Positions 58,690 to 59,648 of a stretch of 64,000 nucleotides of DNA are shown here, piece after piece. Position numbers and translations under genes: made by a program. Source of the stretch: Odontesthes bonariensis (taxonomy: Eukaryota; Chordata; Actinopteri; Atheriniformes; Atherinopsidae); the NCBI RefSeq assembly GCF_027942865.1, contig NC_134522.1, positions 6,912,849-6,976,848 of the forward strand, written 5' to 3'. Position 1 is the first letter of the stretch. Every line of letters starts with the position of its first letter. Below the pieces are notes generated by a model. That model had not been told where the DNA came from, did not search any database, and saw nothing but the letters and a program-made list of their open reading frames with translations.

Positions 58690-58971
58690 ACGCTGTTCCG
58701 TTTTAAAATGTACTTTATGTTACCAGGGCAACCGAATCTCCAGTTGAAGTCTGTTGTTTTGACCAATCAGATGCAGGGTTTGTTTTGACTGACATCTTAT
58801 TTGTCCAATAGAATTTATGAAGAGAGAACACAACTTTGTCTTTTCACTGACCGATAAGAAATTTGTAATTTCGACAAAAATGAGAGAAATTGTACACCTG
58901 CAGGCCGGCCAGTGTGGCAACCAAATTGGAGCTAAGGTTCGTAACAATTTGGTGTGGAAATGTTCGCTTGA
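58690..58971 (+). promoter_or_regulatory. tubb4b: Tubulin promoter/exon-1 unit 1 (282 bp)
   Basis: First of three tandem copies. CCAAT boxes lie at 58763-58767 and 58805-58809. Coding exon 1 is 58880-58936, encoding [19 protein letters not shown], followed by a GTTCGT donor. Compared with units 2 and 3, this copy lacks a 57-bp segment of the 5' region. An upstream ATG at 58817 is in frame with the tubulin start and would add 21 residues if the transcript began upstream of it; beta-tubulins start at MREI, so this is unlikely to be used. Confidence 0.85.
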
Positions 58972-59310
58972 ACGCTGTTCCGTTTTAAAATGTACTTTAT
59001 GTTACCAGGGAAACCGAATCTCCAGTTGAAGTCTGTTGTTTTGACCAATCAGATACAGGGTTTGTTTTGACTGACATCTTATTTGTCCAATAGAATTTAT
59101 GAAGCAACGGACGTTGGTAAGAATCATACCTTCTCGAGTCAGTCCGTTGTTGGAGCGCTAGAGAGAACACAGCTTTGTCTTTTCACTGACCGATAAGAAA
59201 TTTGTAATTTCGACAAAAATGAGAGAAATTGTACACCTGCAGGCCGGCCAGTGTGGCAACCAAATTGGAGCTAAGGTTCGTAACAATTTGGTGTGGAAAT
59301 GTTCGCTTGA
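58972..59310 (+). promoter_or_regulatory. tubb4b: Tubulin promoter/exon-1 unit 2 (339 bp)
   Basis: Second copy. CCAAT boxes at 59045-59049 and 59087-59091; coding exon 1 at 59219-59275 with an identical protein sequence and donor. It contains the 57-bp segment (59105-59161) missing from unit 1, which holds the inverted pair CAACGGAC (59105-59112) and GTCCGTTG (59142-59149). Here the upstream ATG opens a short uORF closed by TAG inside that segment. Confidence 0.85.
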
Positions 59311-59648
59311 ACGCTGTTCCGTTTTAAAATGTACTTTATGTTACCAGGGAAACCGAATCTCCGGTTGAAGTCTGTTGTTTTGACCAATCAGATACAGGGT
59401 TTGTTTTGACTGACATCTTATTTGTCCAATAGAATTTATGAAGCAACGGACGTTGGTAAGAATCGTACCTTCTCGAGTCAGTCCGTTGTTGGAGCGCTAG
59501 AGAGAACATAACTTTGTCTTTTCACTGACTGATAAGAAGTTTGTAATTTCGACAAAAAATGAGAGAAATTGTACACCTGCAGGCCGGCCAGTGTGGCAAC
59601 CAAATTGGAGCTAAGGTTCGTAACAATTTGGTGTGGAAATGTTCGCTT
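59311..59648 (+). promoter_or_regulatory. tubb4b: Tubulin promoter/exon-1 unit 3 (338 bp)
   Basis: Third copy, nearest to exon 2. CCAAT boxes at 59384-59388 and 59426-59430; coding exon 1 at 59559-59615. It differs from unit 2 at only a few positions. Identity to the other copies stops after GTTCGCTT (59648), so the repeat covers promoter, 5' UTR, exon 1 and about 33 bp of intron 1. Confidence 0.85.

Follow-up and report, generated by a model that had tools for sequence, protein, structure and literature searches.

A beta-tubulin gene of Odontesthes bonariensis is preceded by three head-to-tail units, each bearing a copy of the same promoter region and of the first coding exon. This array, at 58690-59648 and less than 1 kb long, was found in the window, that is, the whole 64,000-nucleotide stretch of contig NC_134522.1 analysed here (all positions are those of the window), and is a confirmed observation. 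As it stands, it belongs to a well-known type of partial duplication. The reading that we favour, with somewhat better than even confidence, is that the 5' end of a beta-4B-like tubulin gene has recently been duplicated in part and in tandem, which would have left largely redundant promoters, probably with units 3 and 2 dominant. The features of the array are as follows.

58690..58971, plus strand: unit 1, 282 bp, with two CCAAT boxes, a short leader, an exon-1 copy, a donor, the first 33 nt of the intron and GA at the joint, and without the 57-bp stretch
58972..59310, plus strand: unit 2, 339 bp; contains the 57-bp stretch
59311..59648, plus strand: unit 3, 338 bp; contains the 57-bp stretch and an additional A ahead of the ATG; adjoins the rest of the gene
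58880..58936, plus strand: exon-1 copy 1, 57 coding nt, then GTTCGT
59219..59275, plus strand: exon-1 copy 2, 57 coding nt, then GTTCGT
59559..59615, plus strand: exon-1 copy 3, 57 coding nt, then GTTCGT
58763..58809, plus strand: CCAAT boxes of unit 1, at 58763 and 58805
59045..59091, plus strand: CCAAT boxes of unit 2, at 59045 and 59087
59384..59430, plus strand: CCAAT boxes of unit 3, at 59384 and 59426
59104..59160, plus strand: the 57-bp stretch in unit 2, absent from unit 1; end points uncertain by 2 bp; contains an 8-bp inverted repeat
59443..59499, plus strand: the 57-bp stretch in unit 3, the same as in unit 2
58963..58977, plus strand: joint of units 1 and 2, TTCGCTT-GA-ACGCTG
59302..59316, plus strand: joint of units 2 and 3, its 15 bases identical to the joint of units 1 and 2

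The first-pass annotation had described three tandem units of 282, 339 and 338 bp, each with two CCAAT boxes, a leader, an exon for 19 residues and a donor. Its coordinates and lengths were exact, and all of these elements were present in the three units. The exon copies open with ATGs at 58880, 59219 and 59559 and are followed by the same donor (AAG/GTTCGT), and the CCAAT boxes are spaced by 42 nt within every unit. Tandem Repeats Finder reported a period of 339, with 2.4 copies and 98% matches across 58821-59648. The only other repeated 40-mers in the window were located at 24271-24335/24548-24612 and at 28305-34331. With so few of them elsewhere, the array is far beyond what would be expected by chance.

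Pairwise comparison revealed 3 substitutions over 280 positions between units 1 and 2, 6 over 337 between units 2 and 3, and 6 over 280 between units 1 and 3, a similarity of 98-99%. Across the 338 alignment columns, the units displayed 8 variable substitution columns, all upstream of the ATG, together with two indels, of 57 bp and 1 bp. The shortness of unit 1 results from the absence of the single 57-bp stretch between the CCAAT boxes and the leader. The coding exon was identical in the three copies (57/57 nt). Assuming even placement, the chance that none of the 8 variable columns falls in the 57 coding nt is P 0.22, and P 0.08 if the start of the intron is included with the exon. Thus, we do not claim that the coding exon in particular is under constraint or subject to conversion. 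The earlier suggestion that the copies are either of recent origin or kept alike by gene conversion is plausible as it stands, but conversion and exon constraint lack support at P 0.22.

The remaining exons of the gene were placed by eye, from splice signals and the protein.

59828-59936, 60534-60644, 60825-61069, 61181-61503, 61590-61934 and 62015-62162, plus strand: exons 2-7 of the beta-tubulin gene, from splice signals, protein, Pfam and the PDB match

When the seven exons were joined, with 59559-59615 as the first, they encoded 445 residues with no internal stop. Swapping in exon-1 copy 1 or 2 led to an identical 445-residue protein, in frame with exon 2; the annotated expectation that the protein is unaffected by the copy used was therefore borne out. 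Both the tubulin GTPase domain (PF00091) and the C-terminal domain (PF03953) were detected above the Pfam cut-offs. Among the best 60 of 72 PDB matches (E <= 1e-200), the closest sequence was beta-4B, over residues 1-445, with 9 differences as counted by hand on the printed alignment. The Pfam domains and this full-length match agree with the initial identification of the gene as a beta-tubulin.

The first intron follows codon 19, and the next two interrupt codons 56 and 93; these are the usual positions in beta-tubulin genes. Vertebrate beta-tubulin genes have four coding exons, with a single last exon. Here the last coding part (60825-62162) is split by three further introns, one following codon 174 and two interrupting codons 282 and 397, which would be extra relative to that four-exon layout. 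The gene is therefore similar to vertebrate beta-4B-type tubulin genes in its protein and in the first three intron positions, but would differ by its three exon-1 units and by three extra introns in place of the single last exon.

Several other features were recorded in the window. A TTC7_N match was detected at 8589-9113, and a tetratricopeptide exon at 26848-27306 may belong to a TTC7 gene. It lies upstream of the minisatellite at 28305-34331, which is about 6 kb long (173 copies of a 34-bp pyrimidine-rich unit, 93% matches) and in which all three plus-strand frames are open for more than 2,000 codons. The direct repeat at 24271-24335 and 24548-24612, with its shared 40-mers, is located in a region with several overlapping open frames. 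Two minus-strand exons are located between the TTC7-like and tubulin genes: an EF-hand exon at 39982-40344 (Pfam), calmodulin-like by eye, and an exon at 48764-49297 with a tetratricopeptide match below the Pfam cut-off, which we take for NRDE2. Pieces of a Tc1/Sleeping Beauty-type transposase occupy 17212-18698 in several frames, with HTH_SB in the first piece, a domain consistent with a fish source, and the later pieces assigned by eye. At the Rfam gathering score, the only match in the window was to U2 spliceosomal RNA (23155-23307, minus strand, 71.9 bits), far from the array. Since model positions 1-192 fit into only 153 bp, this is probably a copy with inner deletions. No tRNA was found in the window.

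Every unit contains the motif GACCAATCA, which follows the NF-Y-type CCAAT consensus. The pattern RRCCAATSR was found 12 times in the window for 7.88 expected, and at least 12 times in 7 of 100 shuffles; it is so frequent by chance that a CCAAT box alone is weak evidence. The boxes present in each unit are no more than suggestive of a separate active promoter for each first exon. Simple patterns for TATAWA, a GC box, CACGTG and the CRE core had no match in any unit. The nearer CCAAT box is 75 nt from the ATG in unit 1, versus 132-133 nt in units 2 and 3. In these two units, the only match to the initiator-like pattern BBCABW downstream of the nearer CCAAT box and ahead of the shared leader is GTCAGT, at -81/-82 and inside the 57 bp; it is absent from unit 1. 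A second match, TTCACT at -37/-38, is common to all units. In unit 1 it is found at -37, 80 nt past the farther CCAAT box, a spacing that would be workable for a start, so that unit 1 need not be dead.

Because the 57 bp are absent between its CCAAT boxes and its leader, unit 1 was ranked weakest, and it is probably less active than units 2 and 3; this ranking is based on spacing and on a degenerate 6-base motif. Each copy is in frame with exon 2, but equal usefulness of the three is doubtful, since unit 1 has neither the 57 bp nor GTCAGT. Two other roles for the 57 bp were considered and rejected. As a structured leader, the stretch from the 8-bp inverted repeat to the unit 2 ATG gave a folding z of 0.81, no better than its shuffles, of which 157 of 200 were as stable or more. 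As a dispersed element, its first 22 nt, searched with up to 3 mismatches, were present in the window only in units 2 and 3.

The additional CCAAT promoters might raise tubulin transcription, the exon copies being kept since the promoter extends into the exon. We consider such a dosage effect unlikely. In its favor, both CCAAT boxes, the ATG and the donor are unchanged in each unit, and tandem promoter repeats accompany raised mRNA elsewhere, as reported for TR34 of fungal cyp51A (PMC6414702). TR34 is also a short tandem duplication upstream of one gene, with multiplied binding sites. However, what is repeated there is a 34-bp promoter piece, whereas here the leader, first coding exon and donor were copied too, and the tubulin array is not known to change output. 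Moreover, there is no sign of selection on the array, an unchanged exon having a chance of P 0.22. All three exon-1 copies also encode an MREI start, the TTC5 signal for tubulin autoregulation (PMC10403363); with MREI kept in all copies, this autoregulation could offset extra transcription.

According to the reading that we favour, each unit would act as a CCAAT promoter with a first exon, its own donor being joined to the single exon-2 acceptor to give the same tubulin. Unit 3, which lies closest to exon 2, and unit 2 would probably supply the starts of most productive transcripts. With an assumed 30-nt leader, all three transcripts spliced from the own-unit donor have the full frame at their first AUG; a longer leader would take in an upstream ATG, which lies at -63 in unit 1 and at -120/-121 in the other two units. 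It is also conceivable, if improbable, that only unit 3 is used and that units 1 and 2 are inert upstream DNA carried along neutrally. Unit 3 does adjoin exon 2, its intron 1 measuring 212 nt versus 552 and 891 nt from units 2 and 1, and it alone has transcripts without a competing donor. However, the promoter anatomy of unit 2 is the same as that of unit 3, and the exon copy of unit 2 is undamaged.

The borders of the units provide some indication of how the array was formed. Its left edge reads AAAG-ACGCTG and its right edge TTCGCTT-AATTC, and both inner joints read TTCGCTT-GA-ACGCTG. In a first step, a segment that starts 73 nt before the first CCAAT box and ends 33 nt inside intron 1 would have joined its own copy, without homology and with two bases, GA, added where they met. 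The third unit would have followed later, by homologous exchange when the copies were misaligned. The identity of the two inner joints makes such an exchange the most likely origin of the third copy; a second joining without homology would hardly strike the same bases, which favours one non-homologous joining and one homologous event. This order of events, like the promoter activity and the ranking of the units, is inferred; the unit anatomy, the intact frames and the identical joints are direct observations. The 57 bp may have been lost from unit 1 or gained by units 2 and 3.

Unit 2 goes with unit 3 at 2 substitutions and at the 57 bp in the 5' part, and with unit 1 at 3 substitutions and 1 indel in the 3' part. 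In order, the two-against-one differences are X Y X X Y Y Y Y, where X denotes unit 2 like unit 3 (the fourth being the 57 bp) and Y denotes unit 2 like unit 1. Such a mosaic is expected of the middle unit after unequal crossing-over in a two-unit array. The permutation test, which left out column 201 (only unit 2 deviates) and column 155 (inside the 57 bp), gave P 0.14 (0.29 when either orientation was counted), and the pattern is contradicted at column 53. The pattern is thus not significant, and is a hint that unit 2 may be a product of unequal crossing-over.

Near-identical tandem copies, here 98-99% alike, are a known assembly hazard. We see little likelihood that two haplotypes or a smaller array were expanded to three units by such an error, although a misjoin of two two-unit haplotypes could also yield a mosaic middle unit. 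Indeed, the units carry private differences (the 57-bp indel, the 1-bp indel and the 8 substitution columns) and the window contains 0 Ns. In addition, the switch in unit 2 falls between the 57-bp stretch and column 199, a distance of about 10 bases that would be short for an assembler overlap.

To be productive, a transcript that starts in unit 1 or 2 has to skip the later donors. With later-donor use, each of the three start/donor pairs places a 49-residue MREI mini-ORF first, and 5, 10 and 5 AUGs precede the full frame. The statement that any unit could be joined to exon 2 is therefore true for the own-unit donor, with tubulin read from the first AUG, but with a later donor the mini-ORF is met first. 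Transcripts from units 1 and 2 might often use a later donor and, through these mini-ORFs, be poorly translated or decay, so that splice choice would act as a brake; the three donors are identical and the later ones are nearer the acceptor, but such transcripts are hypothetical and may be a mere by-product. We regard this brake as highly unlikely, and give very little credence to a dimmer whereby tubulin output would depend on which of the identical donors is used, with the count of units as a dial that can vary between animals.

Arrays of alternative first exons are known (PMC1885805), and in UGT1 each of the tandem first exons has its own promoter (PMC3325998). In variable-first-exon clusters, UGT1 included, tandem first exons are spliced to one constant exon set, and the array in front of the tubulin gene likewise offers several tandem first exons whose donors fit the frame of a single exon 2. 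The difference is that first exons and products vary in those clusters, whereas the same 19 residues (57/57 coding nt identical) are encoded three times here, within less than 1 kb. A literature search without most subscription journals turned up no description of a tubulin gene with an array of this kind, a weak negative. Searches of sequence collections not meant for fish say little: the degenerate exon-1 pattern had 0 matches in genome contigs, and with 107 residues of exon 5, 12 stretches of viral contigs matched the pattern and 0 were confirmed.

Altogether, a recent partial 5' duplication with largely redundant promoters remains the reading that we prefer. If real, the array is a small natural experiment, with a promoter and a coding exon present three times before one tubulin gene and the protein unchanged. 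It would then make it possible to study how output under tubulin autoregulation responds to the number of promoter and first-exon copies.
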